Below, one piece after another: positions 3,345-58,365 of a stretch of 64,000 nt of DNA. The notes beneath the pieces are model-generated. The model was not told the origin of the DNA. It was given only the letters and a program-made list of their open reading frames with translations, and searched no databases. This stretch comes from Rhizopus arrhizus (lineage: Eukaryota; Mucoromycota; Mucoromycetes; Mucorales; Rhizopodaceae), in assembly GCA_024220505.1 (NCBI GenBank), contig JAKZZE010000024.1:310001-374000 (forward strand). Direction: 5' to 3'. Position 1 is the stretch's first letter. Every line of letters starts with the position of its first letter. Made by a program: the position numbers and the translations under genes.

Positions 3345-3399
3345 AACCTCCCGAATGATAGGCAGACGCTCTAACCATTTGCACTATCTCCACATACCT
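3345..3399 (-). repeat. SINE copy S0: tRNA-derived head fragment
   Basis: On the minus strand this reads as a tRNA-like head (GGTTAGAGCGTCTGCC.. then GGGAGGTT) that aligns with the head of SINE S3 (15,174-15,105). It is cut inside the internal B-box region by CACTA copy 1. Its body, if kept, lies to the left of the window. It is the outermost member of the retroposon stack at the tRNA-Ala gene. Confidence 0.6.
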
Positions 3400-3413
3400 G
3401 GGGATGTAGCTCA
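3400..3413 (+). repeat. 14-nt tRNA 5'-end tag (target-site copy) next to SINE S1
   Basis: GGGGATGTAGCTCA is identical to the first 14 nt of the tRNA-Ala gene at 20,036. Copies also sit at 14,640-14,653 and 15,181-15,194, and a further copy is split by element B1 (3,879-3,887 and 5,520-5,524). Each one abuts the 3' end of a SINE or LINE. Confidence 0.85.
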
Positions 3414-3878
3414 GGTTAAAGATTTTATATTTTTATTGGATAATATGCAGGCGACAAATATGTCATTATTGCTATCCACAGTGATAAACTGGAAAGCATA
3501 CAAACTATTATGGGGGAGGAGGGAAAGGAAGAAAGAAGGAACGGATTATTATTGGGGGGAGCTGGAACCAGAGACGAAGACTTGAGGCAGGAACAGAACG
3601 CGCTTCATTAAGCCCGGGCTGGGCATCCCGGCACCGCGGACCAACAACGCTCGACAAACAAACAACGCAGACCAACCGACCAGAACAGCAGTGGCGTTAA
3701 AACCAGTAATATCGTCAAGAGCGCACACCAAAGTCCCCCGAAAGGGAAGGAAAGTAGGCAGATGCTCAGCTGCTACGCAACGCAACACACAGGCGGAGAA
3801 ACAAAAGTGCTTGATGCACTCGGCAAACAGAACATGTAGAGGGGCAGGGAAGGGATAGACCCGAAGATCCTATCAGGG
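3414..3878 (-). repeat. SINE copy S1, 5'-truncated (tRNA head missing)
   Basis: The minus-strand retroposon runs from about 3,878 to its 3' end at 3,414. The tail shares ...GTCGCCTGCA...AAATCTTTAACC with the LINE at 15,195. The GC-rich body is nearly identical to S2 and S3 and keeps an open frame of 79 codons (3,788-3,549). Unlike S3 it stops at CCCTGATAGG and lacks the tRNA head, which is usual for incomplete target-primed reverse transcription. Confidence 0.8.
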
Positions 3879-3887
3879 GGGGATGTA

Positions 3888-5517: not shown

Positions 5518-5524
5518 TAGCTCA

Positions 5525-5910
5525 GGTTAAAGATTTTATATTTTATTGGATAATTGCAGGCGACAAATATGTCATTATTGCTATCCACAGTGATAAACTG
5601 GAAAGCATACAAACTATTATGGGGGAGGAGGGAAAGGAAGAAAGAAGGAACGGATTATTATTGGGGGGAGCTGGAACCAGAGACGAAGACTTGAGGCAGG
5701 AACAGAACGCGCTTCATTAAGCCCGGGCTGGGCATCCCGGCACCGCGGACCAACAACGCTCGACAAGCAACCGACGCAGACCAACCGACCAGAACAGCAG
5801 TGGCGTTAAAACCAGTATTATCGTCAAGAGCGCACACCAAAGTCCCCCGAAAGGGAAGGAAAGTAGACAGATGCTCAGCTGCTACGCAACGCAACACACA
5901 GGCGGAGAAA
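5525..5910 (-). repeat. SINE copy S2, 3' part (interrupted by CACTA copy 2)
   Basis: The 3' tail starts at 5,525 (GGTTAAAGATTTT in plus orientation) and the body is nearly identical to S1 and S3. At 5,911-5,913 the SINE is broken by the CACTA element with TSD CAA and resumes at 14,584-14,639. The preceding 14-nt tag is split by element B1. Confidence 0.8.
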
Positions 5911-6227
5911 CAACACTGCAAATAATAGTGTAAATTGGGTAACAAATCGTTTACCAATCTTGCGAAATAATTTACAATCGTGTACAATCAGGTAAGAGAT
6001 TTATCCACGCACAGCCTCCTGTCTCTGCCACAAATCGTGTAAGTTATTGTTCGCCCTTTGGTTATGTGATGGTGCAAGATTTGTGGCCAACACAGGAGAC
6101 TGTTGGGAGACTTTTTCGTTAACTGATCTTGCAAGGTGGACCTTTCATCAGTTACGTTGTGGCTCTTGTTTATTATCAATTTGACATCTAATGGTGCTTG
6201 GCAACCAATCACGCTTTGTAAAACACT

Positions 6228-6355
6228 ACTTTATTTGTCTTTTTGCTCTTTTATAAACCACTCATATTGCTTTATATACTTCTTTATGAACCACTTATAT
6301 TGCTTTATATACTTCTTTATCGACCATTCATATTGCAATAAATATTGCTTTATAT
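6228..6355. repeat. Short tandem repeat, about 36-bp unit, inside CACTA copy 2
   Basis: Three degenerate units share CATATTGCTTTATATACTTC. Nothing suggests a coding role. Confidence 0.6.
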
Positions 6356-6359
6356 ATAC

Positions 6360-7395
6360 AAAAAATAGGGATTTTGTTTATAAAAAATAGCTTTTTTTTT
6401 TTATTTAAATAAAATAATAATAACAATACATAGTATTTCTTTGCTTGTAGCATTTTAACAGTGTGCTTGACTTACCTAATGTCACCAGAATAGCAGCATC
6501 TAATCTAAAAATACATCAATTAATCTCGTGGAACTTTAAAAGTTCTCAAAAGAAAAGAAAAAAAAAGCAAGCTCAAGGATTCTAGGATTCAAAGACACAA
6601 GGACCAGGGCACTTAAAGCAAAAGATGGAAGTACATCAGTACTTAAGAACCAAAGTAAAAACCAGGAAAGAAACAGAAAGAGGCCAAAGCAGAGCAGCAT
6701 TTATCTATAATAATTATTAGCTATCGTATATATATCGTAAAAGCAATAGTACCTTTCTTTAGATAGACAAGGGGAAGAAAACTTGCTAAGCTTTTACCAA
6801 TAAGTAAAAAAAAGGAAGCAGCAGGCATCTATAATAATTATTAGCTATTGAGTATATGTAGCAAAAGTAATAGTACCTTGCTTTGGATGGACCATGAAAA
6901 AAAAAAGAAAAAAAAAGATACCAGTCAAGCTTATACCAACAAATAAAAGAAGAAGCAACTACAATTCTGGGAAAGAGACTTTATAAAGACTATTTAAACC
7001 ATAAAAAAAGCAATCGATACATCTTTACTAAAGTACAAGTACCATTAGAATAGGAATAGAATACATATGTAATATTAAGAACTTACCTTTTATAAAAAAG
7101 AGAAGAAAAAAAAAAGAAAAAAAAAAGAGAAGTGCTTTTTTGTAGCCTTATTTTACCAATGTTACACTTATTCACTGTCTATCTATATTAGAAAACAAAA
7201 ACAATTGCTTTTCATGTAGTTTACATTTAATGGTATCCCAAAAGATAACTTATACATTGCTTGAACAAGTTTTATTACTTGAATGCAATATGTTTAGGAG
7301 GAAGGTTATTATTTTATTTTATTTTATTTTTTTTTACTTGAAATAAAAAAAAAAAGTCGGTATCTTAACAAATTATAGCAGTAAAACAACATCTT
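6360..7395. repeat. AT-rich non-coding region of CACTA copy 2 with a duplicated about 128-bp segment
   Basis: TCTATAATAATTATTAGCTA occurs at about 6,701 and again at about 6,829, each followed by similar sequence (AGCAATAGTACC / AGTAATAGTACC). There is no gene here. Confidence 0.55.
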
Positions 7396-7725
7396 TTTTT
7401 TTCTCCCTAGTTTTGTTTCATGGAATACACTAGATGCCAAAGGCATAAAACAAAAAAAAAGGAAAGCTCAAGCACTGGTCAAATGTAAGCTTATAAAAAA
7501 GTAATAACAACCAAGTCTAATGTCGGTTTCTTTTTTTTTACATTAGGAATTCCTAATGGGACACATTCGGATGACGAACATGAACCTCATGAGCAAAGTT
7601 TTTCGCTTTAACACGATAAAACTATAAGAATATCAAACTTATATTACTGCTTGTTGTTAAAAAGCCCTTTTTGATAAAGAAAGTTGACAATGTTAACATC
7701 TCTAATGGCTGATGGCTAATGGCTA

Positions 7726-8066
7726 TGAAGTGTTTTAAGTATTCAAAAATAAGATAAAGAAGAATTAACGAGACCGAACAATAGTTCTAAAGTCGAATAC
7801 TTTTATTAAAGAAAGATTTCAAGGCTATTTATATTAGTTGAGCAAGACCTGAGATTAGATGACAAAAATAGTTACGACCGATATGATTTGACATGTATAA
7901 GAAAAATTTTATAGACTGATGTTAATAATCAACTGTTGAGATGAAAGTGAAACTTGGCTGTTTAGGGCAGTGATAATTATCAGGTTCTATTCTTATTCAA
8001 ACTCATTTGTAAAGATTTAGTCCAGAATGATAAGACTGTATCTTATTGACATGTCAAAACATGACA
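7726..8066 (-). repeat. 3' LTR of chromovirus D
   Basis: 341 bp, TG...CA in element orientation, matching 13,390-13,730. It contains TATAAATAG and AATAAA in sense orientation, plausible promoter and poly(A) signals. Confidence 0.95.
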
Positions 8067-8082
8067 TTGCCCCCTTCCAGGT

Positions 8083-8488
8083 TGTAACTATCTTTTCTGG
8101 AATTAATGTGGCAAGTGAAAATATGTTTGTTTAGGTGAATGTCGAAAATGAGGTTTGAGATGTCAAGATGAGCTCTATTTGTTGTAATAAATAGGTGCTT
8201 GGTAGGGTTAGGTCATATAACGTATAGTGGCTCTTTATATAAACATATAAAGTATAGTGTTCAAGAATGGAACAAAGCATTTAGGCGATAATAAACCCTG
8301 AACAGGAATTTATTGCTAAAGTGATGTTTGTCTGTAAATGTGACTGCGTACAAATGTGCATATTGAAAAATATTAAGGCATGAGAAAAAATACATTTTTT
8401 ACTATCCTTGTAAATATTTTATAATTGCGTAATTTGCTGGTAACGTATATGTATAGTTAATGAAAGTTGGTGGAAGAAGGTCAATGTA
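8083..8488 (-). other. 3' untranslated region of chromovirus D
   Basis: Sequence between the gag-pol stop codon and the polypurine tract. I see no further gene. Confidence 0.7.
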
Positions 8489-11400
8489 TTAACGTCTGTT
8501 TCTTTTAGAGTTATTTACACTGCGATGCACGTTTTTTCTTTTCTTAGTCGTATCTTTTTTAGGAACAAGTTGAACCTCGCGCGCTGGTTCTTGTTCACTT
8601 AGACGTGACCAATATTTTTGGATCGGTCTGTAATCATGGAAATGACTAGCCGGTTCCCAAGTGTCATCTTCTTCTCCATAACCTTTCCATCGAACTTTAT
8701 ATAAGTAATTACCCGGTGATCCCTTATGGTGTAGAACTGCCTCAACATCGTATGATTCAGATTGATCAGTATTGGATAAGGATACTTCCTGGGAAATAAC
8801 CTTTATTTGCGATGGAGGTACATCTCTTGGTAAGAGTGCTCCAGTTGCATCAACCAACACATATGAACCACCTTGAGTTTTTCTTTTGACAGTATAATTA
8901 CCAACGTAGAGGGGATCACTTTTTGCAACACGGTTTACATTCTTGAGCGTGACTTGACTACCAGTGGGGATATCGGTTAGAATTCTGTGAGTTTGGTTGA
9001 ACTTGTCTCGAGAAGCAGCTTGTGAAGTTTTTATTTTTTCACGAATAGCCGGTAAGACAGTGTCATTAAACTCGTTAATTCTAGTTTCTAACTGTTTCAT
9101 CGTTTCAGGCGATTTAGTTTTGTCCAGCACGTTATTATAATCCTTGTTTTCATTGGGACGTCTTGCAAACATCAATGAGAAAGGTCTAGTGCCGTGTAAA
9201 GCTGTATGCGTATTGTTGAGGGCTTCTTGGGTACTGTCAACGTACAAGTCCCAATCCTCAGTTCTGCCTTGTAATCTTTTGTGCAAAATATTTTTTGCTT
9301 TGCCAACCCATCGTTCAACTATACCGTTAGCTCGAGGATGATAAGCTGATATGAGACGATGATCAATACCGGATGATTCAACATACAGTCTGACGAGTTC
9401 ATTGACATACTCCGTACCATTATCACTTTGGATAATTTTTGGTCGACCAAAGAGCGATAAGATACTCCTTAATGCAAGTGCAATAGTGAGAGAAGATTTA
9501 TCGGGCAAGGCTTTGAGTACACAATATCGTGTAAAGACGTCTACTACCAGAAGGATGTATTGATTACCTTGTACTGAAGTAGGGAAAGGTCCGGCTGTGT
9601 CGATACAGATGTGATCCCAAGGTGCATCAGCATAGATTGAGGTCAAGGGATTGTATCCGTGCTTTGCGATATTGAATTTTTGGCAATCAGGACAACTACG
9701 TATTATTTCAAGTGCATCTTCCTTGAGCTTTGTCCAGTGAATACCATCACTATGTAAAGCTGTTACGATTGCTTGAGCTCCACGGTGTCCCTCTAAATGT
9801 GTATCCATGAGTAGCTTTTGTCTGTCTTCTGGTGCTGGGGTCATCAAGTCAGCAGGCATCATCATTCTGGATGTAAGAATTGATCCGTTAGAATTGATAA
9901 TTTGGGAAGTGACAATTGTTTTGATGGTTTTATTATCCCCCTCCAGCGTTTTTTCAGGTTCGAAAAGACGCGACAAAGCATCTGGTAGAATATTTTGAAT
10001 ACCAGGTCGATGGATGATTTTGAAGTTATAATCCAGTATAGTGTCCAGCCAATTGATCATCATAGCGTTAGCTACAGGCTGGGTGTGGAGATAAGTCAAG
10101 GCCTTGTGATCAGTGTATAAGGTGAATGGATTACCCCACAAAAATGGATGAAACTTCTTTAGTGCAAATATCACTGCTAATAGCTCACGTTTAGTGGTAG
10201 AATAATTCTTTTCAGATGTAGAAAGTGAGCGTGCCATGAAACCGATATATCGAGTCTCATTTTTGATAACTTGGTAAAGAACAGCACCAATTGAATAGTT
10301 ACTAGCATCAGTAGCAACATAAAAAGGTTGTTCTAGATCTGGATGATGAAGAAGTGGCGCAGAAGACAATAATGCCTTGATCTTTTCAAAAGCTCTTTCT
10401 TGTTCAGATGTCCAAAGTTTATCAAGTTTACCTTCGAAACGTAATTTGTCCAAAGGTGCAGTGACTTCAGAAATATTTGGCAAGTATTTTCTAAAATAAT
10501 TTACCAGTCCTAAAAAGCGTTGAATCTCTTTTCCAGATGCAGGTCTAGGCCAAGTCAAAGCGTTTGTAACTTTACGAGGATCGAGTCGAGACCCTTTGGC
10601 ATCAACACAGAAACCAAGCAAGTAAACAGTAGACTGCGCAAAATGACACTTGTCTGGGTTAAGGATCAAATTCACTTTAGTTAATCTCTGAATTATGTTT
10701 TGCACATGTGTGATGTGTTCCTCATAAGACTTGGAAAATATGATGATATCATCAACAAAAGCCTGTGCATAAGGTAAATCACGTAACACTATATTAATCA
10801 CTCGTTGATAACGGGAAGCAATATGTTTCAAACCAAATGGACAACCTCTAAATTGGTATTGTTGACCTTCAAAAGTGAATGTGGTCTTAATACGATCAGG
10901 CTCATAGATTTGGAATCGATGAAATGCTTGTCGAAGATCAAGAGTGGTAAAAATAGTTGATCCTTGTAATCGATCGAAAATCTCTTCAATCTTTGGAATA
11001 GGATGTCTATCATTTGACACAAGAATAGAATTTAGCAAGCGAGGATCAAGACAGGGTCGATGTCCTGTGAGATTACCAAGCAAGTCTTTCTTAGGTGCCA
11101 ATGTTAAAGGAGAATTCCAATCTGAATTAGGTGATGCACGTTCAATAACTTCATCCTTTAACCAAGTGTCAATACATTCACGCATGATTGGTAGTAATTT
11201 AAAAGGAGTACGATATGGTGCACGGTAAGCAGTTTTTCCTTTAACAGTATCTAAACGTATAACTGACTCGGGTACAGTACAAAATGAATTCTTTGGTATT
11301 AAGGCATTTTGATCAACAAATGGTTTAACAGCATTATGGAAATGAGCTTGTTGCTCAGGTGTACCGAAAGGAGCTTTGTTAGGTTCAGGTGTATCATCCG

Positions 11401-13348
11401 TAATCTCTTTGTCAATAACTGGTGCAAGATTAGGATGTCTGATAGCTAAGTTGGTAACAAGAATGTTTAACTTGTGCATCAGATCTAATCCTATTACAAC
11501 TTCAGTATCCAAGGAAAGAGGAAGGACTTCAAAAGAGTGGGATGTATGAATAAGATTTTTATCATTATCACCATAAATAACACTTAATGGAAATTTGGTT
11601 GTACCGAAACGTTTACTAACATTATCACTTGTAGCAAGTATAACGGAACCAGATACATTTCTATCAACTGCAATATTATATTTATTAACAAATTTTGTGT
11701 CTATCGAGCTAAAAGAAGAACCACTATCAACTAGGGCCATAGTGTTCACATTTTCTATAGTGATAGGTACAATTAAAGAATGGTTAGTACTTTTAAATAC
11801 TTCATTCTGTTTTGTTAATTTCTTACAATCATAATTAATAGGATAGCCCTCGTCATCTACGTCCATCAAGTTGCTATCACCACTAGACACCTTGGAAGAT
11901 GCCTGTTGTGGTCTAGCTTGAGGAGTGATGGTGAGGTTAGACTTGCTACCATTGGGCCTTGAAGTATCCAAGCGAACAGAACGGATGGCCCTAGTTGGAC
12001 CTTGATAAGGCTTGTCACGAGGACAGTGAGCAGCATGTTCTTTTGACCAGGGGACATTACCCAAGCAACGATAGCAGTTTTTGGCAACCGAAACAAAAGA
12101 CAAGGAAGGACTAGATGTATCAAGAGACGAATTTACCAAAGAAGGATTTTTGTTCAGTAGATCCTTGTATTTGTTGCATTTTTCAGTTGTGTGATTTGCA
12201 AGACCATGGATTGCGCAACGGAATTTATTTTTCAAATTTCCAACTGAAGAATGTTTCTTCATAGTACCCAGTGAGTTGCTTGATGAGCTGAAGTTCTTTG
12301 GGTTGTACTTTGATGCCTCTGTTCCACTTGCTAGGAGAGATGAAGATGAGGGCTTGGAAGGGGCAGGTTCTTGACGACTTGGGTTACCCACCTCAGAACA
12401 CAAGTTGGATGACAAGACCATTCTAGCTTTTGCTGCAACTTTTGTCACGGAATCTTGTTGATCTCTTCCAAGGTTTAACAAGGAGCGAGAGACCTCCTGA
12501 CGTAAAAAGTTTGGCAACGCACGCTTGTAAATGGATGCTGTCTTGATGTCATCATCCCACTTGGCAGCTCTGCGGATCCTTTGAAAACGATCTGTGAATG
12601 CTTCGATAGATTCCGTCGATCCCATTTTAAGCGATAAGAGCTGGTCCATGTGCTCCAGTTCCTGGGCTACGTCTTGTGCCGCATAGGTCTTGATTATTAT
12701 TTTACGGACCTCAGACCAAGTCAAGCTACGCCCTTTTAATACTTCGTTGAACCATGATCGTTGATCCCTGTTCATTTTGATGGGAACCAGGCGAGACCAA
12801 CTAGCATCAACTGACAAGCCATTAGATTCAATTATTAATGAGAAAGTATCAAGCAGGTCTTCCACTGAATCATGGATATCAGCATCTTTTCTCCAAACAT
12901 TACCACGCCACTGCCATATTGGGAGATCCGATGGGATAAGGTGGTCCAAGCGAGGATTAGGATTTCTGCTTGAGAGATCAGCGCTAAAGGAAGTATCGCT
13001 AATAGGAGGAGGAGGAGGGACACAAAACGCTTGAGCTTCATCAAGAAATTTGATGCAGTTTTGGATATTCACTGCTCGCTCCTGTAACTTCAACAAATCT
13101 TCTTGTGTAGCACCAGCCACAACAGCACGAGCTATTTGCTGTCTAAGGTTTTCCAAAGTAATCCTTAGACCCATGACAGCGTCCACAGAAGGGTCTTCTA
13201 TTTGTGAACTTTCTACAGTAGTAGGTGCCTTTCCCGTATTGGCCATTTCTATGTCTTCATATACTTCAACGTTTTCTTGTACGTTCTTGTTAGATATAGC
13301 ATTTTCATTAAGCATAGATAATTCATAGGTTTGTTCTTTTTCTGTCAT
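8489..13348 (-). CDS. Gag-Pol polyprotein of chromovirus D (Ty3/gypsy), 1,619 aa
   Basis: This single frame encodes the whole retrotransposon polyprotein. In order: a Gag region with a long helical part and Cys/His stretches (CYRCLGNVPWSKEHAAHC); an aspartic protease with VDSGSS near residue 540; reverse transcriptase with FVDD near 865; RNase H starting at YVATDAS near 1,010 and ending DALSRLF; an integrase HHCC zinc finger near 1,185-1,220 (HLEGH...CPDCQ) and DDE core (CIDTAGP, QSDNGTEY, GIVERW); and a C-terminal chromodomain near 1,525-1,575 (YKVRWKGYGEEDDTWEP). Gag and Pol are fused without a frameshift. No inactivating change is visible. The chromodomain places it among chromoviruses, whose integrases are steered to marked chromatin. 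The start is the first ATG (MTEKEQTY), 41 bp inside the 5' LTR boundary. Confidence 0.95.
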   Translation of the reverse strand: MTEKEQTYELSMLNENAISNKNVQENVEVYEDIEMANTGKAPTTVESSQIEDPSVDAVMGLRITLENLRQQIARAVVAGATQEDLLKLQERAVNIQNCIKFLDEAQAFCVPPPPPISDTSFSADLSSRNPNPRLDHLIPSDLPIWQWRGNVWRKDADIHDSVEDLLDTFSLIIESNGLSVDASWSRLVPIKMNRDQRSWFNEVLKGRSLTWSEVRKIIIKTYAAQDVAQELEHMDQLLSLKMGSTESIEAFTDRFQRIRRAAKWDDDIKTASIYKRALPNFLRQEVSRSLLNLGRDQQDSVTKVAAKARMVLSSNLCSEVGNPSRQEPAPSKPSSSSLLASGTEASKYNPKNFSSSSNSLGTMKKHSSVGNLKNKFRCAIHGLANHTTEKCNKYKDLLNKNPSLVNSSLDTSSPSLSFVSVAKNCYRCLGNVPWSKEHAAHCPRDKPYQGPTRAIRSVRLDTSRPNGSKSNLTITPQARPQQASSKVSSGDSNLMDVDDEGYPINYDCKKLTKQNEVFKSTNHSLIVPITIENVNTMALVDSGSSFSSIDTKFVNKYNIAVDRNVSGSVILATSDNVSKRFGTTKFPLSVIYGDNDKNLIHTSHSFEVLPLSLDTEVVIGLDLMHKLNILVTNLAIRHPNLAPVIDKEITDDTPEPNKAPFGTPEQQAHFHNAVKPFVDQNALIPKNSFCTVPESVIRLDTVKGKTAYRAPYRTPFKLLPIMRECIDTWLKDEVIERASPNSDWNSPLTLAPKKDLLGNLTGHRPCLDPRLLNSILVSNDRHPIPKIEEIFDRLQGSTIFTTLDLRQAFHRFQIYEPDRIKTTFTFEGQQYQFRGCPFGLKHIASRYQRVINIVLRDLPYAQAFVDDIIIFSKSYEEHITHVQNIIQRLTKVNLILNPDKCHFAQSTVYLLGFCVDAKGSRLDPRKVTNALTWPRPASGKEIQRFLGLVNYFRKYLPNISEVTAPLDKLRFEGKLDKLWTSEQERAFEKIKALLSSAPLLHHPDLEQPFYVATDASNYSIGAVLYQVIKNETRYIGFMARSLSTSEKNYSTTKRELLAVIFALKKFHPFLWGNPFTLYTDHKALTYLHTQPVANAMMINWLDTILDYNFKIIHRPGIQNILPDALSRLFEPEKTLEGDNKTIKTIVTSQIINSNGSILTSRMMMPADLMTPAPEDRQKLLMDTHLEGHRGAQAIVTALHSDGIHWTKLKEDALEIIRSCPDCQKFNIAKHGYNPLTSIYADAPWDHICIDTAGPFPTSVQGNQYILLVVDVFTRYCVLKALPDKSSLTIALALRSILSLFGRPKIIQSDNGTEYVNELVRLYVESSGIDHRLISAYHPRANGIVERWVGKAKNILHKRLQGRTEDWDLYVDSTQEALNNTHTALHGTRPFSLMFARRPNENKDYNNVLDKTKSPETMKQLETRINEFNDTVLPAIREKIKTSQAASRDKFNQTHRILTDIPTGSQVTLKNVNRVAKSDPLYVGNYTVKRKTQGGSYVLVDATGALLPRDVPPSQIKVISQEVSLSNTDQSESYDVEAVLHHKGSPGNYLYKVRWKGYGEEDDTWEPASHFHDYRPIQKYWSRLSEQEPAREVQLVPKKDTTKKRKNVHRSVNNSKRNRR

Positions 13349-13389
13349 GTCTTGATTATAACCAGTAGTTCAGAATTCGTTAAAAAAAA

Positions 13390-13730
13390 TGAAGTGTTTT
13401 AAGTATTCAAAAATAAGATAAAGAAGAATTAACGAGACCGAACAATAGTTCTAAAGTCGAATACTTTTATTAAAGAAAGATTTCAAGGCTATTTATATTA
13501 GTTGAGCAAGACCTGAGATTAGATGACAAAAATAGTTACGACCGATATGATTTGACATGTATAAGAAAAATTTTATAGACTGATGTTAATAATCAACTGT
13601 TGAGATGAAAGTGAAACTTGGCTGTTTAGGGCAGTGATAATTATCAGGTTCTATTCTTATTCAAACTCATTTGTAAAGATTTAGTCCAGAATGATAAGAC
13701 TGTATCTTATTGACATGTCAAAACATGACA
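13390..13730 (-). repeat. 5' LTR of chromovirus D
   Basis: 341 bp, matching the 3' LTR. It is followed in element orientation by TTTTTTTTAACGAATTC rather than a TGG-starting primer-binding site. Confidence 0.95.
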
Positions 13731-13735
13731 GGCTA

Positions 13736-14570
13736 ATTGCAAATTACACCCATCTGCAAATACAAAGTAAGTAATGAACTAATATAAGCTTAAAAACATA
13801 TATTCTTTTGTATTATTTGTCATAAAAAATAATAAAGTAATCTCTTTACTTGAAACCAAAAAAATTGTGCTTGTATTTGTTAATTATAACTGCCTTGCAA
13901 CAAAATGTGAGCAGAGCTTCTTTACTTTTTATTCTTTTGAGAATATACACGTATTCTTTTGTTATAATGTAAAAGCATTTGTATTTTTATAAAACATATT
14001 TGTTCTTAGATTATTGTTTTCATTTGAATAAGGAATCTTTTATTGCTATGCTCTTTTTTTTTTTTTCACTAGGTCTTTTTTTTAACTTTGTCTTTTTTTT
14101 TTACTTTTAATCTTTCAGCTTCTTTTTTTTTTTTTTTACTAAACGCAACTATTTTGTTACGCCCTGTTACACATTGCTAATGAGCTACGCTAAAGATCAC
14201 AGATTGCCTTCCTAATATGTATTCTTCTGTACAAAATAATCGCACGGTGCTTTTGATTTCCGCATTTTGCCCTCAAAAATAAAAAAAAGAAAATATCGGT
14301 CTTTAAACAATGGAGAGAAATACGCTTTCCAAAAAAAGATCGTTTGTAAAAAAAAACATTTCTTTAAAAATGTGAATAACTCCATGAATATTTACCCTAC
14401 AAATAAAATAATAACATCGTTAAATTTCTTTATTTTTTTCGTATCTAAATCTTTTTTCAAAATTCGAAAATGATCAATACAGCAAGATTTAATTTTTTTC
14501 ACGAAAAAAAGTAGCAATTTGTTACCCAAACGAAGAGCAATCTTGCGCAATCCGGTACCTAATTGGAACG
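13736..14570. repeat. Right non-coding arm of CACTA copy 2
   Basis: This corresponds to 2,470-3,330 of copy 1, including T-tracts at 14,050-14,140. There is no gene; the 68-codon frames seen in both copies are AT-rich and carry no recognisable domain. Confidence 0.65.
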
Positions 14571-14583
14571 ATTATTTGCAGTG

Positions 14584-14639
14584 CAAAAGTGCTTGATGCA
14601 CTCGGCAAACAGAACATGTAGAGGGGCAGGGAAGGGATA
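14584..14639 (-). repeat. SINE copy S2, 5' part
   Basis: This continues S2 beyond the CACTA insertion and matches the S1/S3 stretch AAGTGCTTGATGCACTCGGC onward. It ends abruptly at the next 14-nt tag (14,640-14,653), so S2 is 5'-truncated. Confidence 0.8.
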
Positions 14640-14653
14640 GGGGATGTAGCTCA
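14640..14653 (+). repeat. 14-nt tRNA 5'-end tag next to SINE S3
   Basis: GGGGATGTAGCTCA is read as the target duplication left when S3 inserted at the 5' end of the tRNA-Ala gene. Confidence 0.85.
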
Positions 14654-15180
14654 GGTTAAAGATTTTATATTTTATTGGATAATTGCAGGCGACAAATATG
14701 TCATTATTGCTATCCACAGTGATAAACTGGAAAGCATACAAACTATTATGGGGGAGGAGGGAAAGGAAGAAAGAAGGAACGGATTATTATTGGGGGGAGC
14801 TGGAACCAGAGACGAAGACTTGAGGCAGGAACAGAACGCGCTTCATTAAGCCCGGGCTGGGCATCCCGGCACCGCGGACCAACAACGCTCGACAAGCAAC
14901 CGACGCAGACCAACCGACCAGAACAGCAGTGGCGTTAAAACCAGTATTATCGTCAAGAGCGCACACCAAAGTCCCCCGAAAGGGAAGGAAAGTAGACAGA
15001 TGCTCAGCTGCTACGCAACGCAACACACAGGCGGAGAAACAAAAGTGCTTGATGCACTCGGCAAACAGAACATGTAGAGGGGCAGGGAAGGGATAGATCC
15101 GAAGATCCTATCAGGGGTCGAACTTGCGACCACACCAATAATAGTCAGACGCTCTACCGACTGAGCTACATCCACATCCC
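14654..15180 (-). repeat. SINE copy S3, complete, tRNA-derived head to LINE-like tail (527 bp)
   Basis: Read on the minus strand, it starts with a tRNA-like head (GGATGTAGCTCAGTCGGTAG...GTTCGACCCC). A GC-rich unrelated body of about 370 bp follows, then a 3' tail shared with the LINE (hairpin at 14,691-14,702, then GCCTGCAA...AAATCTTTAACC). This is the classic tripartite layout of a tRNA-derived SINE mobilised by a partner LINE. The body keeps a 79-codon open frame (15,026-14,787). Confidence 0.85.
15114..15168 (-). promoter_or_regulatory. Internal RNA polymerase III promoter of SINE S3 (A box and B box)
   Basis: The A box TAGCTCAGTCGG lies at 15,168-15,157 and the B box GTTCGACCCC at 15,123-15,114. 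Spacing is close to that of a tRNA gene. The anticodon stem does not pair (TCTGA against TGGTG), so this is a tRNA-derived promoter and not a working tRNA. Confidence 0.7.
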
Positions 15181-15194
15181 GGGGATGTAGCTCA
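15181..15194 (+). repeat. 14-nt target-site duplication at the 3' end of LINE G
   Basis: GGGGATGTAGCTCA is identical to tRNA-Ala positions 1-14 (20,036-20,049). Together they form the 14-bp target duplication of the LINE. Confidence 0.9.
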
Positions 15195-15463
15195 GGTTAA
15201 AGATTTTGTTTTTATTAAATAACGAAGATATATTGCAGGCGACTAAAAAGTCATTATTGCATCTTCATGTACAAAAAAAGAGAATAAGATACAAAAAAAG
15301 GAGCCTGAGAAACAGAAAAACTCCAAAAAAAAGATAGAGAAAAAAGATGAGATTGACTGCCTACTTCCACAACTTAGCTGACCTACTGTCACAGCCCAAC
15401 GGTAAGGAACTTTGATGGCTTTACTTCCGTGGGGGATCAGCAGGAGACAGGCAAAGAAGGGTT
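15195..15463 (-). other. 3' UTR and recognition tail of LINE G
   Basis: Pyrimidine-rich in element orientation. The last 70 bp match the SINE tails, including the hairpin GACT-TTTT-AGTC (15,252-15,241 on the minus strand), where the SINEs have GACA-TATT-TGTC. The tail is probably what the LINE reverse transcriptase recognises. Confidence 0.75.
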
Positions 15464-18400
15464 TCAGTCAGAGTTATGAGAAGAGCGAGAATACCAAGAG
15501 GCACCAGGAGAAGAGTCAATAGCATAGAAGCTATCAGGACGGCACAGACGTTGTATATGCCAGAGCATCAACAAGAGAGATGACCACCAAGGAGGACAGC
15601 GAGCTGAGCGACCAAGAGGCAACGAGGAAAGAGCAAAGTCTATAGGGTAAGACCCAGGAGGACAGCGAGGAAGGTCAGACCAAAGGAAAGACGGGATCAG
15701 ATCACACTCGAGGAAGTGACGACGAGAGCGACGATCACGGCCACACGGACAATCTTCAGGCTTACCTGGCAGCCAGCCAAGACGCCAACGAACCAAGAGA
15801 GAGCGTTCTGCACGAGTAGCAGGAACGTATAAGATGGGATCAACCACCAGAGCAGGGCGACATGCGCGTAGGAGAACCTGAGTAGTGGAGGTGGCGAGAG
15901 AGATGACTTGACGCTCACGATACTGGCGGAAGAAGGTCTTGAGCCGAGCATCGGAGGACGGAGGAGGAGAAGGCAAAGCCAAGAAAAGCGGATTCTTTTG
16001 AAGATGAACCTTGATGCGAGATACTGGAAGCGTTGACGAAAGTAGAGACAGCAGGCAAGAACCAGGAAGAGAACGAACACGTAGACAGTAGCGAGTGATA
16101 AGCACATCTATGCGGTGGCGCATAGATGGCAGTGTTGTAATGTGCTTGATAATCGTAGTAGAAGAGGTACGATGGCCACCAACCAAGAGACGGAGACAGC
16201 GATCTTGTAAGCTTTCAATAGACTTGAGATCAGTTGCCGTCAGCCGAGATATGGCTAGGCCATACTCAAACTTCGGGCGAACAAAGGTGGCATAGATGCG
16301 TGAGCAGAGCAAAAGAGAGAAACCTTGACGATTGACACCAATCTTGTTCAGGATAGCCATAACCTTGATGACACCAGGAGACCGGAGAGAAACCAAAGAG
16401 GGAGCAGAGAGACCAGACTTGACGAAGGGCACTCCAAGATATACGAAGTCATCCACCAAAGGCAGAGGAGTATCATATAACTGGAGGCGATCGGACGAGG
16501 AAGAAGATGATGGTGGGTGGTTGAGCACCGCACATTTTGTAGGGTTCCATCGATAACCCAGAGACAGCGAATGTTGTTCACATAGCTTGAGCATCTCTTT
16601 GACTGACTTTGCCGAGCCAATGACTGCGACATCGTCAGCAAAGAGGAGAGAGTTCACTGGGACCATACCAGCATCGGAGCGACCAGAGGAGGGAACCAAA
16701 TGGGTGGCAGGAGCAGCGACTTGACGAAGTAAGGAGGGTAGAGTGTTGATGTACACCGAGTACAAGTGAGGACTGAGAACAGAACCTTGCAAGACACCGG
16801 TGACAGGAGAGAAAGGAGCGGACGAGTGATTGGACACCAAGACAGACACCGAGACATCATCAAACAGATGGACCAAGAGAGACAGGAACGGACTTGACGC
16901 ACCAGAGCGAGAGAGAGCATCCCAGATAACTCGCCGGTCGACGGTATCGTAGGCCGACTTGATATCCAGGAATGCCACCACAGGAAACCGATGGGAGCGA
17001 CGGTAGTACGATTGTATCAGTTCATGTAGGCATAGAGCCTGATCCAGAGCAGACCGACGAGGACGGAAACCACCTTGAGCAAGGTCAAGAGGAGGAGAGA
17101 CAGAGGACAACCATGGAGACAGCGACAGCTCAAGTAGCTTGCGGAATATTGATGTGAGTGAGATCGGACGGTAGTTTGAGGGAAGTGATGAATCACCTTT
17201 CTTGAAGATAGGGTATACTTGAGCATGTCGCCAGAGAGAAGGAACATAGGACCATTGCCAGCATAGAGTGAAGAACCAGGAAAGAATGAACGACAGGTCA
17301 GTACTGATCGGCTTGAGCATCTCGGCCTTGATGTGATCAGCACCAGGAGCTTTGCGCGTAGGCAGTTGACCGATAAGTGAAGCCAATGTTGCAGGCGAGA
17401 ATATTGAAGTGTTGAAATGAGCGGAATGAGCAGTAGATGTAAGAATTTGAGCAGCAGCACCAGAAGAGACAACCAAAGGAGACGAACCAGGAGGACCAAA
17501 GGGCAAACCAAGAGAAGACGGATCAGGAGGAGCAGGCGGACGGACAGATGGAAGCAAGTGACCATCATAGACAGAAGCCAAGTGACGAGCCATTATTTCC
17601 ACTGCCGTAGCCGGACCATCAGGATGAGAGAATGAGGATGATGTGAGGTGGCGATGTTTGAGCTGCTTTACTTTGGATATGGCTTTAGTAAAGTCAGACT
17701 CAAGGGACTTGCAGAACGCTTGCCAAGAGAGACGTTTGGCATTAGCCACAGCTTGACGAAAGGAGGTATTCGCTTGTTGATGTTGATGCCACCAATAGAC
17801 TTTGTCAATACCAAAGGCACGACGCCATCTACGGTAACATCTGTTGCGGAAATCAGCAGCATCTTGAAGTTGTTGTGTCCAGTACTTTTTCCAATGGGAT
17901 GGACGAGGAGGACGATCACCGACAGAAGAGTCAAGAGAGCGGTAGATAATGTTGTTGAGCGACGCGTTGAGGTCGTCAATAGGCGGACGTGAAGAAGGAG
18001 GGTGTTGAACCAACCTTTTCAGTTGAGAAAGCAATGGAGCAGAGGACGTACGAAAGGTATCTTGATAGAGTTGACATGGATCAGGTTCACCAAGGCGAGA
18101 CAAGTTCCATAGTCGACGAGGATGAATAGTAGCATCAGGTGTATCAGATAATGACTCAGAGGCACTTGACGGAGCAAAAGAAAATGACAGCGTAAGTAGA
18201 CGATGGTCAGAACCAAGAGACAAGTCAGACGCGATGTCAAGGCGAGGAGACATCAATGACGCGTTTGTTAAAAACATGTCAATGATGCTACTCATCTCTC
18301 GATCATCACGAAACCCGACCCAGGTAGGAATACCATGAGCCAGTGGGCCGTTCAGAACGGTCAAAGAGCGATCAGCAAGCCAGCGAGCCATAGCAGCACC

Positions 18401-18859
18401 ACGAGGAGAGACCAATGCATCACCAGTGAGGTCACCAAGACGAGCATTAAAGTCGCCACAGATAAAAGAATTGGGAAGAGAAGGGATGGAGGAAAGTACA
18501 TCAATGAATTCAGAGTTGGAAAGAGGAGGAGGAACATACAAACAATGAATGCGAAAGGGTCCAACCTTCAACGAAAGGGTATACCGATTCGGTGAAGGAA
18601 GTTGAGAGACAGGAAAGGGACAAGAAGGAGAGACCAGAGCAGTAACACCCATCGAACCACGGTTGGCCGAAGGTACAGGCACACCATACACATGATACTG
18701 CATCCAGTCAGTAGGAAGAAGAGAAGGGGAAAGAAGCCAAGTCTCGGTGATGAAAAGGAGAGTAGAGGAGAGACAATGAGACAAGACCTCATGAACGGTC
18801 GTGGTCCGAAGACCATTCGCGTTCCAAAGGCTTATAGAAAGGTGTTGGACCTCACTCAT
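15464..18859 (-). CDS. LINE G ORF2: AP-like endonuclease plus reverse transcriptase, 1,131 aa
   Basis: The N-terminal 235 residues form an apurinic-like (exonuclease/endonuclease/phosphatase fold) endonuclease with WNANGL, ITETWL, CGDFNARLGD and GSDHRLL. Reverse transcriptase follows, with FADD near residue 740 as catalytic box and the preceding blocks (GGFRPRRS, LDIKSAYDTV, GVLQGSVLSP). A C-terminal Cys/His cluster (CPCGRDRRSRRHFLEC) is present. No RNase H domain is seen. The start codon overlaps the ORF1 stop as ATGA (18,859-18,856), which suggests termination-reinitiation. The protein nicks the target, here apparently the 5' end of a tRNA gene, and reverse-transcribes its RNA there. The frame is uninterrupted. 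Confidence 0.93.
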   Translation of the reverse strand: MSEVQHLSISLWNANGLRTTTVHEVLSHCLSSTLLFITETWLLSPSLLPTDWMQYHVYGVPVPSANRGSMGVTALVSPSCPFPVSQLPSPNRYTLSLKVGPFRIHCLYVPPPLSNSEFIDVLSSIPSLPNSFICGDFNARLGDLTGDALVSPRGAAMARWLADRSLTVLNGPLAHGIPTWVGFRDDREMSSIIDMFLTNASLMSPRLDIASDLSLGSDHRLLTLSFSFAPSSASESLSDTPDATIHPRRLWNLSRLGEPDPCQLYQDTFRTSSAPLLSQLKRLVQHPPSSRPPIDDLNASLNNIIYRSLDSSVGDRPPRPSHWKKYWTQQLQDAADFRNRCYRRWRRAFGIDKVYWWHQHQQANTSFRQAVANAKRLSWQAFCKSLESDFTKAISKVKQLKHRHLTSSSFSHPDGPATAVEIMARHLASVYDGHLLPSVRPPAPPDPSSLGLPFGPPGSSPLVVSSGAAAQILTSTAHSAHFNTSIFSPATLASLIGQLPTRKAPGADHIKAEMLKPISTDLSFILSWFFTLCWQWSYVPSLWRHAQVYPIFKKGDSSLPSNYRPISLTSIFRKLLELSLSPWLSSVSPPLDLAQGGFRPRRSALDQALCLHELIQSYYRRSHRFPVVAFLDIKSAYDTVDRRVIWDALSRSGASSPFLSLLVHLFDDVSVSVLVSNHSSAPFSPVTGVLQGSVLSPHLYSVYINTLPSLLRQVAAPATHLVPSSGRSDAGMVPVNSLLFADDVAVIGSAKSVKEMLKLCEQHSLSLGYRWNPTKCAVLNHPPSSSSSSDRLQLYDTPLPLVDDFVYLGVPFVKSGLSAPSLVSLRSPGVIKVMAILNKIGVNRQGFSLLLCSRIYATFVRPKFEYGLAISRLTATDLKSIESLQDRCLRLLVGGHRTSSTTIIKHITTLPSMRHRIDVLITRYCLRVRSLPGSCLLSLLSSTLPVSRIKVHLQKNPLFLALPSPPPSSDARLKTFFRQYRERQVISLATSTTQVLLRACRPALVVDPILYVPATRAERSLLVRWRLGWLPGKPEDCPCGRDRRSRRHFLECDLIPSFLWSDLPRCPPGSYPIDFALSSLPLGRSARCPPWWSSLLLMLWHIQRLCRPDSFYAIDSSPGASWYSRSSHNSD

Positions 18860-19842
18860 AATGAGTGTGATCCAGCACTAGCGGAATCAGAGACCAAAGC
18901 ATCTGACATGACCGTGTCACCACGGAAAGCAGCGCCTGGATCTCGACCACGAGAAGCAAAAGAGGAAGGGGGAGGGGAAGACAGAATCTGACTCAAAGAG
19001 TCGTCATCAAGCCAACCCTTGGAACAAAAGTACTTACCTACGGGACCCACTAGATGAGCACGGCCAGCACCAAGACGAGAGAGAGCACGGGAGCAGCGAG
19101 TGAACTGAAGCTCAGCACATTCATTAGCCTTGTCAGCCGATGAAAGATGCTGGAGCTCAGGATCCGCCAAGTTGATAGGATCCAGAGGATCAAAACCGTC
19201 AACCAACGGAACCTTGGCAGCAGCGAGAAGAGAGATCACCTCTTCTTTGTAGAGAACATGCACCAAAAGGCCAATGACCTTAGGGCCAGGGAAGCAGATG
19301 TCCAAGACACGAGAGAGATCAAAACCAAGTAAACGCAGATTGCGTCTGACTTCAGCACGGGTGAGTTTACGTTTACGATTCAAGTACAAGTACTCGAACC
19401 CACGAGGAGCAGAGGGGTCAACAGGCATGAAAGTACGGCCAGCAGCAAGTTTTCTTTTTTTGGTTACCGGTTTTGAAACAGAACGGGCAGCAACAGCACT
19501 GTAGGTAGGCACAGAGACATTGGAAGCTTGGTTAGCAGGATTATCAACTATGGTAGAGGAGGAGGCAACATTGGAAGCAGTGGCAGTTGACAATTTGGCG
19601 GAAGCTGATTTCAATTGGGCATGGAGATTAGCAATCTCGGCCTTTAATGTTGCATTTTCATTACGCAATGTTGACAATTCGTTTAAAATGTCGTCGTGAG
19701 TCGTAACACGTTCTTGAAGCGTGTTAACAGTATTCAGAAGGTATTTGAAAACATTTGAAATGTCATTTGGGTTCGACATGTCGACATTTGCAACGGCATT
19801 TGGCGACATCTGCAAATTAGCAGGGGTGAAATGTTGGGACAT
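18856..19842 (-). CDS. LINE G ORF1: coiled-coil RNA-binding-type protein, 328 aa
   Basis: This is the upstream frame of the LINE. Residues about 35-85 form a heptad-rich coiled coil (VNTLQERVTTHDDILNELST). A low-complexity Ser/Ala/Val stretch and a basic patch (KKRKLAAGR) follow, then a folded region (EYLYLNRKRKLTRAEVRRNL) that might be an RRM-like fold. No CCHC knuckle is seen. By analogy with other LINEs it should trimerise and coat the element RNA. The assignment rests on position and coiled coil, not on clear sequence similarity. Confidence 0.8.
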   Translation of the reverse strand: MSQHFTPANLQMSPNAVANVDMSNPNDISNVFKYLLNTVNTLQERVTTHDDILNELSTLRNENATLKAEIANLHAQLKSASAKLSTATASNVASSSTIVDNPANQASNVSVPTYSAVAARSVSKPVTKKRKLAAGRTFMPVDPSAPRGFEYLYLNRKRKLTRAEVRRNLRLLGFDLSRVLDICFPGPKVIGLLVHVLYKEEVISLLAAAKVPLVDGFDPLDPINLADPELQHLSSADKANECAELQFTRCSRALSRLGAGRAHLVGPVGKYFCSKGWLDDDSLSQILSSPPPSSFASRGRDPGAAFRGDTVMSDALVSDSASAGSHSL

Positions 19843-20035
19843 GGGTGATGTCTAAAATATTTAAAATAAGAGCTTTCGGACTGAAAAAAATATATATTGT
19901 AGAGAAAAATAAGGCGCGTTTTTTGGTGTTAAAATGGTGGATGAATGTATCGTATTGGTGTTGAAAATCGAGTTCAAAGATGAGCAAAAATAAATACCTT
20001 GTGTAACGGTCGGAAGAGCGAAAGAAAGGTGGTCG

Positions 20036-20108
20036 GGGGATGTAGCTCAAATGGTAGAGCGCTCGCTTAGCATGCGAGAGGCACTGGGATCGACGCCCAG
20101 CTTCTCCA
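20036..20108 (+). tRNA. tRNA-Ala (anticodon AGC), intact
   Basis: A cloverleaf folds over 73 nt: acceptor GGGGATG with CTTCTCC, D arm GCTC/GAGC, anticodon stem CTCGC/GCGAG around TTAGCAT (AGC at 20,069-20,071), and T arm CTGGG/CCCAG. The G3:U70 wobble, the alanine identity element, is present. A73 follows and there is no intron. One U:U mismatch sits in the acceptor stem, and the T loop reads ATCGACG in place of the common TTCGA start. A T5 tract near 20,150 could end transcription. The LINE and SINE stack begins exactly at its first base. Confidence 0.9.
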
Positions 20109-21253
20109 CGTTGAACCTAAAGTTCAATAGGTTACTGCTTCCATTGTGTTTTTGTTTCACCTATTGTGACGCATTTTTATTTTACTTTTGGTGTTGAAAG
20201 AAGACAAACAGTAATGTAGCTTTGTTGCCATCAACGTCCGGTTATCCTTACACTACTTCCAAAAGAGGTTTAGCCAGAAATTAGTGTAACCAAGAAGAAA
20301 GTAACAATGTAACACCCGATCAAGCCGAAAATTTTCAAAATAGCGACTTTAGTCGCTAGATCGAAAATTGTCGGTCAAATGAAAACTTTCATTTTTGTGA
20401 AAAAGGTCAAAAGCACAAACAAAGAAACAATATAAATACCTTCTCTTGTTGAAGTCAATTCAATTCAGTTTTTTTGAATAAAGAACTCAAGTTCAATTCT
20501 TTTTATCTTTTCATTTACACAAACAGGCAATCTTTAGTTATAAAAGTCCCTGTTCCCTTTATTTTTATCTTTATCTTTTATCTTATATTTGATCTTACTT
20601 AAAAGATCTGGTGGTCACATCAAGCAACTAAACTTGTAAAAACTCAAGAAAACTCTCTTTATTAATAACAACCTTTACTACTTCAAGAAAATAACATTAG
20701 CTTTTATTGATTTACTTTTACAACAGCAAATGTTAACAAAAAAAAATAGAAAACGTGAGAAAAACCAAAAACATGAAAAGATATAAAATACTCCCCTTTT
20801 TCAACTTTACTTTTGACTTACTTAACTTCCCTCATATATTTTATCAAATAAATATCAAGTTCCCTTTTTATAAAAACCTCTGAATTATTCATATCGAGCA
20901 CGAACAAGTCCCTTGAAGCCAATATATCTTCATTGTAATCCCTTTTTATTTTATTCTTTTACTTTTAATTTTTACTCTATCAAACTCAAGTCTGATCTGC
21001 TTAACAAGATCTGGTGGTCACTCTTACAAGAACCGAAATCAATTCTACTTAGTCAAGAATTACCTTTATTCCAAGCAAACGCGCTTATATTTTATCTATC
21101 TCAATTACTCAAACTCCGTGAACGCGAACTTTTACAGTAAATTTTTTTTTGTACTGTTGTGACGCAGTTGGTGTAACTTTTGCGGAAGAAGGGACTCAGT
21201 CGTAGTGTAGCACAAATGATGAAATTTTGGATCTGGAGAACAATGATGATCAC
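20109..21253. other. AT-rich region with decayed LTR-retrotransposon-like sequence, no gene
   Basis: GATCTGGTGGTCAC occurs twice (20,605 and 21,008), each after a TGATCT..C/GTTAA-type stretch, as in the leader of an LTR element. TGTAACACCCGATC near 20,311 may be an LTR start. I found no matching end or coding frame. Confidence 0.4.
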
Positions 21254-58351: not shown

Positions 58352-58365
58352 GAGGGGTTTTATAC

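Follow-up and report, generated by a model that had tools for sequence, protein, structure and literature searches.

The window, a stretch of 64,000 nt from Rhizopus arrhizus (assembly GCA_024220505.1, contig JAKZZE010000024.1, forward strand, 310,001-374,000), contains a full-length LINE next to a tRNA-Ala gene, preceded by a series of older insertions. The features are the following (positions of the window):

3400-3413, plus strand: oldest fossil target duplication detected in the window
3414-3878, minus strand: still older SINE, 5'-truncated, same tRNA
3888-5517, no strand: mariner-like element, 24-bp inverted ends, TA duplicated
5525-5919, minus strand: 3' part of the older SINE, final bases overlapping the TIR element end
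5914-14583, no strand: TIR element (CACTGCAAATAAT...ATTATTTGCAGTG) with an LTR retrotransposon inside
14584-14639, minus strand: piece of the older 5'-truncated SINE, parted from its own 3' part (5525-5919) by the TIR element
14640-14653, plus strand: fossil target duplication of the 527-bp SINE
14654-15180, minus strand: SINE, 527 bp, tRNA-like head, tail common to the LINE, inserted before the LINE
15181-15194, plus strand: left copy of the 14-bp target duplication (nt 1-14 of tRNA-Ala)
15195-20035, minus strand: full-length LINE, 4841 bp, antisense to the tRNA (ends set by comparing 91 tails and 72 5' ends)
15195-15463, minus strand: LINE 3' UTR, query for the tail search
15224-15266, minus strand: 3' hairpin with covarying pairs, shared with SINEs
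15464-18859, minus strand: ORF2, APE-type endonuclease and reverse transcriptase
18856-19842, minus strand: ORF1, 328 aa, coiled-coil-like by inspection
19843-20035, minus strand: LINE 5' UTR
20036-20109, plus strand: intact tRNA-Ala(AGC) gene, the target (ARAGORN; Rfam RF00005, 54.4 bits)

The 14-mer GGGGATGTAGCTCA bounds the LINE on both sides (15181-15194 and 20036-20049), and its right copy represents nt 1-14 of a foldable tRNA-Ala gene that stayed intact after the insertion, as the preliminary description had stated. The tRNA carries the G3:U70 pair, as read from the sequence, and a U-U mismatch at position 6:67. Both ORFs of the LINE are open, and the ORF1 stop overlaps the ORF2 start (ATGA). 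Pfam identified an APE domain (Exo_endo_phos_2, 6.2e-10) upstream of the reverse transcriptase (RVT_1, 1.6e-22) in ORF2 and no other domain, thus also no RNase H, while NCBIfam yielded no match for ORF1 and ORF2 that reached its cut-off. ORF2 and Mucor proteins share about 50% identity, and these proteins are not known to be Grem-LINE1. From its ORF2 domains, the target duplication, and the 5'-truncated copies, the element is an APE-type non-LTR retrotransposon.

Copies of the tail of this LINE (family 1) and its SINEs were analyzed genome-wide, and all genome-wide counts refer to the single assembly. The comparison of tail copies with tRNA 5' ends had been proposed beforehand, and 84 of the 91 tails lie right behind nt 1-14 of a tRNA gene, namely of Ile in 71 cases, Ala in 10, and Thr, Pro, and Asp in one each, though segmental duplication may have generated many of the junctions in arrays, so that the 84 are not 84 independent events. 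Unrelated sites, which had been named as the observation that would speak against targeting, harbor only four of the 91 tails, and three have no readable end. Chance is ruled out by the control offsets, at which none of 7392 14-mers fit, and by a reverse-strand control, in which the best match in 91 had 4 mismatches. The opposite end of the element gives the same picture: 70 of 72 LINE 5' ends adjoin a tRNA 14-mer, which belongs to an intact tRNA in nine cases and is followed by the next tail in 61. Elements lie at 0 bp from the tRNA, or are separated from it by up to 9 extra bases, and not 40-54 bp upstream as TRE5-type elements do. The family 1 LINE is a target-specific non-LTR retrotransposon with copies at a fixed base of a multicopy target, and insertion at tRNA nt 1-14 is the rule in this genome for the LINE and the SINEs. 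An element is present at nt 1 of 9/11 Ala, 6/9 Ile, and 3/7 Phe genes, while the family 1 LINE was found at none of 22 other tRNA genes examined.

It could be argued that the 14-mer is a captured tRNA 5' end and part of the element, so that its presence reflects inheritance instead of targeting, and the identical Ile 14-mer at most junctions (71/91) would fit. However, the same LINE (99.9-100% identity over the parts compared) is flanked by Ile 14-mers on C3 and by Ala 14-mers on C17, at the tRNA-Ala of the window, and therefore the 14-mer belongs to the target and not to the element; a tRNA carried along by the element is rejected on the same grounds. Also the twelve target tRNA species, and the exact 14-mer on both sides of even 5'-truncated copies, e.g., of a LINE at C11:67238 and a SINE at C11:54664, make the capture of the 14-mer extremely improbable. 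In the copy at C11:67238, about 46 bp adjoining the tRNA have no alignment with the LINE.

The window illustrates that one target can be used repeatedly, and in its column one tRNA-Ala has received at least five insertions. The exact 14-mer occurs four times on the tRNA-sense (+) strand of the window, and five matches with up to 2 mismatches were found on both strands, compared to 0.19 expected; several copies are present because the 527-bp SINE and older SINEs had inserted at the same tRNA earlier. One further copy is split (3879-3887 and 5518-5524) by the element at 3888-5517, which we take by resemblance to belong to the mariner family, and a second SINE-type head (3345-3399) precedes the oldest fossil duplication. 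The right end of the TIR element in the window lies 56 bp upstream of a fossil 14-mer. Genome-wide, the distance from the end of a TIR element to the tRNA downstream of it was 54-59 bp at 12 living tRNAs, and for 10 of 11 fossil 14-mers the corresponding distance was 55-58 bp; from this similar spacing it follows that the fossil 14-mers once were the 5' ends of living tRNAs. This bears on the question whether the arrays arose from one insertion by unequal recombination or segmental duplication. The spacing in arrays is regular, near 4.85 and 5.02 kb, and Ile loci on C3 and C14, as well as two on C25, are clearly duplicated, as they have common upstream DNA. However, the arrays are mixtures of LINEs, full and truncated SINEs, and differing tail types, and together with the TIR element spacing this renders an origin of the arrays by duplication instead of repeated insertion unlikely.

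Two further LINE families have the same habit, family 2 at Lys, Met, Thr, and Phe genes (13 of 14 tails at tRNA 14-mers), and family 3 at Pro, Gly, Asp, and Val genes (37 of 55 tails at tRNAs seen here, and 12 at further tRNA-like 14-mers). Therefore, the distinct targeting mode proposed in the preliminary description is supported, and it is broader than claimed, comprising three LINE families, 12 tRNA species, and SINEs. In all of them the elements are antisense and directly upstream of tRNA genes, nt 1-14 are duplicated, and the tRNA is usually whole. The families overlap at Phe and Thr (1 and 2) and at Pro and Asp (1 and 3). The targets have the motif TRGYNNA in common at nt 8-14, where the A box begins; TRGCTCA prevails among the targets of families 1 and 2, and those of family 3 have TRGYNTA or TGGTTAA. 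As tRNA genes generally have TRGYNNA as their A box, the motif alone cannot explain the choice of tRNAs. No LINE was found at one Trp gene (TAGCTCA) and two Arg genes (TAGCGTA).

Alternatively, a protein contacting the Pol III machinery, i.e., TFIIIC or TFIIIB on the tRNA gene, might bring about the targeting, as has been proposed for TRE5-A, the ORF1 protein of which binds TFIIIB subunits, and the endonuclease would merely cut what it meets. The acceptor-stem bases 1-7 vary among the targets and the duplication at tRNAs nonetheless ends at A14, and a SINE head that contains TAGCTCA is the target of none of 88 readable tails, both of which are in agreement with such a contact. However, family preferences that track the A-box sequence are unexpected from a general factor, and the register is exact to the single base, in contrast to the 40-54 bp of TRE5, so that we regard this as a possible but rather doubtful explanation. 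A-box cutting and Pol III contact may also hold together.

The most probable reading, to which we assign a probability of about 0.85, is that the 5' end of tRNA genes serves non-LTR retrotransposons as a specific and reusable landing site, with a nick after A14, a repair that restores nt 1-14 and leaves the tRNA usable, and stacks that are youngest nearest the tRNA. Nick sites and the order of the nicks were read from the duplications. The ORF2 endonuclease would nick the tRNA-sense strand inside the A box (TRGYNNA^), in the window after A14 at 20049, and the 3' end at the nick would prime reverse transcription of a LINE or SINE RNA, which would be recognized through its own 3' hairpin. A cut in the opposite strand would fall at tRNA base 1, and nt 1-14 would be remade on both sides by fill-in. 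With the tRNA restored, a further element would enter between it and the previous element, resulting in head-to-tail stacks. Survival and re-use of the tRNA may let the elements multiply with little harm. That the insertion mode avoids harm, as originally claimed, is an interpretation, and 5' bases are missing from a tRNA-Ile beside a LINE at C18:837393.

The 527-bp SINE has the features of a tRNA-derived SINE, as its head contains TAGCTCAGTCGG and GTTCGACCC, read as A and B boxes by the box consensus, and its tail is common to the partner LINE; neither ARAGORN nor Rfam called the head as a tRNA. Covariation in the shared hairpin was 0.378 in six chosen tails, versus 0.170 after shuffling, and was reached by 0/500 shuffles, whereas the number of pair types was not above that of shuffles (373/500 reached it). 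One of five tails folded more than 2 sd stabler than shuffles.

The 5' junctions might also reveal where the LINE transcripts begin. Between the usual 5' end of the LINE and the tRNA-Ala of the window there are 5 extra bases (GGTCG, 20031-20035), which equal nt 1-5 of tRNA-Ile(AAT) and may be a scar of a previous insertion site. Ile bases were found at two Ala sites and Gly bases at a Pro site, while at L164, and at several Ile sites with just one additional C, G, or T, the extra bases match no tRNA start. Extra bases that represent the first bases of another tRNA suggest that transcription of the LINE begins a few bases within the source tRNA gene. At somewhat less than even odds, at least three LINE families would divide the tRNA genes of one fungus among themselves, with overlap, by reading the A box, cutting after A14, and rebuilding the tRNA as a permanent port; the start of the LINE transcript may come from the tRNA gene, with the 5' scars apparently recording the tRNA of origin of a copy, and growth at such ports would build the large LINE blocks of Mucorales.

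Target-specific LINEs are known, e.g., R1/R2, SART/TRAS, and Tx1-type elements, as are other LINE/SINE pairs with shared 3' hairpins. They also cut a multicopy target at a fixed base, and shared tails carry SINEs, but the targets are rDNA, telomeres, or transposons, and the target copy is usually broken.

LINEs associated with tRNA genes are already known from Dictyostelium and from some NeSL-related and planarian LINEs. The preliminary description had named only the Dictyostelium TREs; further precedents are NLTR-A of D. purpureum, NeSL-1_TV (tRNA-Pro), and two planarian LINEs, LIN15_SM (tRNA-Arg) and LIN25_SM (tRNA-Glu). NLTR-A inserts 2-6 bp upstream of tRNA nt 1, and TRE5-A inserts upstream of and antisense to the tRNA. 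NLTR-A, TRE5, TRE3, and NLTR-B resemble the R. arrhizus LINEs in being APE-type non-LTR elements beside tRNA genes of compact genomes. However, the available descriptions report no cut within the tRNA, whereas the R. arrhizus duplication is nt 1-14 itself, its sites form stacks, and the target tRNA species vary by family; NLTR-A has an RNase H domain, which Pfam did not find in the R. arrhizus ORF2. The NeSL-type and planarian elements have tRNA gene specificity in common with the R. arrhizus LINEs, but they are described among the NeSL-related families, a lineage with a restriction-like endonuclease, and the domain that Pfam identified in the R. arrhizus ORF2 is an APE-type endonuclease. Grem-LINE1 elements of Mucor are likewise ORF1/ORF2 LINEs of Mucoromycotina that cluster in blocks of repeats, which in Mucor are pericentric; however, the main text of that paper reports no tRNA association and does not contain the word "tRNA". 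In the openly accessible literature searched, no account of this cut site, of stacking, or of a partial split of tRNAs among families was found.

The insertion mode would be a retrotransposon answer to a compact genome, in which an essential multicopy gene is cut inside and given back whole, and the site stays available. The columns represent natural stratigraphic records of ordered, datable insertions at one base, and the three families offer endonucleases with related yet different A-box preferences for the study of LINE target choice. They also indicate a possible origin of the tandem LINE blocks in Mucoromycotina. Dada elements, which target tRNA and snRNA genes, are DNA transposons, unlike the LINEs, and could bear only on the TIR element upstream of the tRNAs.

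The LINE of the window is flanked on both sides by GGGGATGTAGCTCA (15181-15194 and 20036-20049), and the right copy forms the start of an intact tRNA-Ala(AGC), as the preliminary description had it. The element comprises the following features:

15195-20035, minus strand: LINE, 4841 bp
minus strand, 193 nt: 5' UTR of the LINE
18856-19842, minus strand: ORF1
15464-18859, minus strand: ORF2, with APE-type endonuclease and reverse transcriptase domains
minus strand, 269 nt: 3' UTR of the LINE

The ORF1 stop and the ORF2 start overlap in ATGA. The closest protein relatives are from Rhizopus, i.e., R. arrhizus (96% over 62% of the query) and R. stolonifer (85% over the full query), and the next ones include Mucor and other Mucoromycotina. 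The tRNA at 20036 is the sole one found within the window. A piece of another LINE ORF2, judged by its sequence, lies at 57181-58359 on the minus strand.

The genome (50.26 Mb, 41 contigs) was surveyed for both ends of family 1, which unites this LINE and the SINEs sharing its tail. Searches allowing up to three mismatches located 91 tail sites by their hairpin motif (27-mer) and 72 5' ends by a 31-mer. Both patterns lie inside the element, the final bases of the 5' pattern possibly taking in 1-2 bases of the duplication, and flanks were taken from loci already extracted and from short regions. For three of the 91 tails the element does not end at the usual distance, leaving 88 readable tails. 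Nucleotides 1-14 of tRNA-Ile(AAT) precede 71 of these (two with one mismatch), those of tRNA-Ala(AGC) precede ten, and the 14-mers of Thr(CGT), Pro(AGG) and Asp(GTC) precede one each, the latter three tails all being SINE-like. Unrelated DNA precedes the remaining four, with TCA directly before the tail at each, as in the Ile, Ala and Thr targets. At other offsets of the same flanks none of 7392 14-mers fitted, with one mismatch allowed. The proposal that tails of this LINE are joined to tRNA 5' ends is therefore borne out genome-wide: 84 of 91 lie at tRNA 14-mers, and only four at unrelated DNA.

At the other end, 58 of the 72 5' ends meet an Ile 14-mer that is in turn joined to another element's tail, and three meet such a junction with an Ala or a Phe 14-mer. 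An intact tRNA follows at nine (Ile four, Ala four, Phe one). Two meet neither, one of which (C18:837393) adjoins a tRNA-Ile without part of its 5' end. Because array junctions were scored both as 3' and as 5' ends, and some arrays are segmental copies, these end counts do not represent independent events. LINE arrays reach contig ends on contigs C3, C12, C14 and C18, and therefore this assembly probably lacks parts of the largest ones.

One and the same element can be found at two tRNA species. The window LINE and the copy at C3:1669527-1674366, which has the Ile 14-mer on each side, are 99.9% identical over 1801 bp of the 5' part and 100% identical over 1769 bp of the 3' part. Between its usual 5' end and the tRNA, the window LINE carries GGTCG, which equals nucleotides 1-5 of tRNA-Ile. 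Extra bases were also present at another Ala site (GGTCGGTCG), at a Pro site (L189; GCGTTCTT, nucleotides 1-8 of tRNA-Gly(TCC)) and at a Phe site (L139; GCGGGTAT, nucleotides 1-8 of tRNA-Phe). These matches suggest that LINE RNAs start just inside the tRNA of their source locus, so that the extra bases would be copied from it. Extra bases of the same species as the target could alternatively have arisen at the target itself. Other extra bases, at locus L164 and at some Ile sites (a lone C, G or T), match no tRNA start. One LINE of a tRNA-Ala array is bordered by an Ala 14-mer at its 5' end and by an Ile 14-mer at its 3' end (C41:1963449 and 1968305); perhaps a two-LINE unit was moved there by read-through.

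The window also records the order of insertions at its tRNA-Ala, listed from the oldest to the youngest:

3345-3399: SINE head
3414-3878: SINE
5525-5919 and 14584-14639: SINE, split by the TIR element 5914-14583
14654-15180: SINE
15195-20035: LINE, followed by tRNA-Ala

The TIR element and its kin, with the ends CACTGCAAATAAT or CACTGCACCCAATC, belong to an unrelated kind of mobile element that likewise keeps a fixed spacing to tRNAs. Their end lies 54-59 bp upstream of nucleotide 1 at 12 tRNA genes of several species (L040, L046, L048, L140, L141, L148, L154, L155, L159, L160, L162, L165). It lies 55-58 bp upstream of ten fossil 14-mers, copies no longer joined to their tRNA, with a LINE or SINE in its place; at an eleventh, the distance of 68 bp reflects a doubled end. 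Five of the 28 TIR ends, all sampled as flanks of tRNAs or LINE ends, have no 14-mer within 120 bp. Because the spacing at these fossil 14-mers matches that at tRNAs, each of them was the 5' end of a living tRNA at the time of the TIR insertion, and younger elements came between later. One fossil 14-mer is split at its TA by a mariner-like element (3888-5517), which has identical 24-bp inverted ends that recur at 26204 and 34025. An LTR retrotransposon is nested in the TIR element, with identical 300-nt direct repeats (7725-8024 and 13389-13688) and an ORF at 8489-13369.

Seen from the tRNA genes, nine of the 11 genes matching tRNA-Ala(AGC) are occupied and two are without an element. Four have a LINE 5' end at nucleotide 1 (the window gene with five extra bases), one has a 5'-truncated LINE whose last approximately 46 bp do not align to the LINE, and four have a SINE at nucleotide 1. 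Two of these SINEs were aligned over 451 and 527 bp, and two, cut by a TIR element, were recognised by their heads only. The exact 14-mer is also present at the far end in six of the nine; in a seventh, on C41, it is present, but the ends are 6.3 kb apart. By inspection, an element was read at nucleotide 1 of six of nine tRNA-Ile and three of seven tRNA-Phe genes. The control comprised 22 of the 63 listed tRNA matches, with Ala, Ile and Phe left out and one Ile-like variant (L162) included. None of the 22 carries a family 1 LINE 5' end, and at five (two Lys, two Gly, one Met) the LINE 5' end belongs to a different family, with seven and nine extra bases at two of these junctions.

Two further LINE families were found at tRNAs. 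Family 2 (3' end TGTTAAAGATTTTG) is represented by 14 tails, 13 of which are preceded by a tRNA 14-mer (Lys three, Phe three, Met four, Thr(AGT) two, Thr(CGT) one), a count biased towards the target because the search pattern started with TAGCTCA. Five of six extracted 5' ends (Met two, Thr three) lie either at nucleotide 1 or 2 bp short of it, and the sixth lies 13 bp before tRNA-Gly(GCC). For family 3 a tail-only motif yielded 55 sites, with loci L212 and L217 assigned by inspection and tRNAs called by ARAGORN, which placed some starts one base early. Thirty-seven tails lie at tRNAs seen here (Pro(AGG) 22, Gly(TCC) seven, Asp(GTC) six, Val(AAC) one, Gly(GCC) one), 12 at three further tRNA-start-like 14-mers whose genes were not found, and six elsewhere, of which four lack a readable end. 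An array-terminal tRNA was present in four of 14 regions sampled for it. The Pro 14-mer occurs 50 times, in stacks with a spacing of about 5.02 or 0.55 kb. Twenty were sampled, nine of them for a likely position at an array end; seven of the 19 readable ones have an intact tRNA and 12 have another tail.

The targets differ at nucleotides 1-7. Nucleotides 8-14 mostly read TRGCTCA in targets of families 1 and 2, the three SINE-like family 1 tails at Thr, Pro and Asp included among these targets, and TRGYNTA in those of family 3, with TGGTTAA at Gly(GCC). TRGYNNA, which equals the leading half of the Pol III A-box consensus (TRGYNNARNNG), fits all 15 target heads, including three for which no tRNA gene was found. 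A14 is the last duplicated base at tRNAs. Since the 3' end of a LINE marks the first nick of its integration, this nick would fall after A14 on the tRNA-sense strand, with the second nick probably at nucleotide 1. An A box is a general feature of tRNA genes and therefore cannot alone decide which of them are used. No LINE was present at a Trp gene that has TAGCTCA or at two Arg genes that have TAGCGTA, and the SINE head containing TAGCTCA is the target of none of the 88 readable family 1 tails.

A hairpin is predicted in all 36 distinct tails of the extracted material. Its inner helix is GACU/AGUC, GACA/UGUC, GAUU/AAUC or GAUC/GAUC in 35, and the family 2 tail differs. In six tails hand-picked to represent the types, the covariation score was 0.378 versus 0.170 in shuffles and was reached by none of 500; slid structures scored at most 0.156. 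Three pairs change on both sides in these six tails, matched by 12 of 500 shuffles; pair types are no more numerous than in shuffled sequences, 373 of 500 of which reach the count. Folding energy alone is weak, with a z-score below -2 in one of five tails. The predicted hairpin fits a LINE reverse transcriptase that would also serve the SINEs.

As far as the sources were accessible, dictyostelids have APE-type LINEs close to tRNAs, the closest of them 2-6 bp upstream, and tRNA-specific LINEs occur among NeSL-related and planarian families. A literature search, with most subscription papers outside its reach, retrieved no report of such targeting in fungi. Upstream of Ile, Phe, Asn, Gln-like, Lys and Ala tRNAs, LTR-like repeats end at a distance of approximately 6-11 bp, a spacing reminiscent of Ty3-type elements:

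L136, L142, L157, L160, L162: LTR-like end ccgacttcgtca or ccgactttgtca
L047, L152, L158: LTR-like end ctataccatttctca
L165, L166: LTR-like end cacatatca
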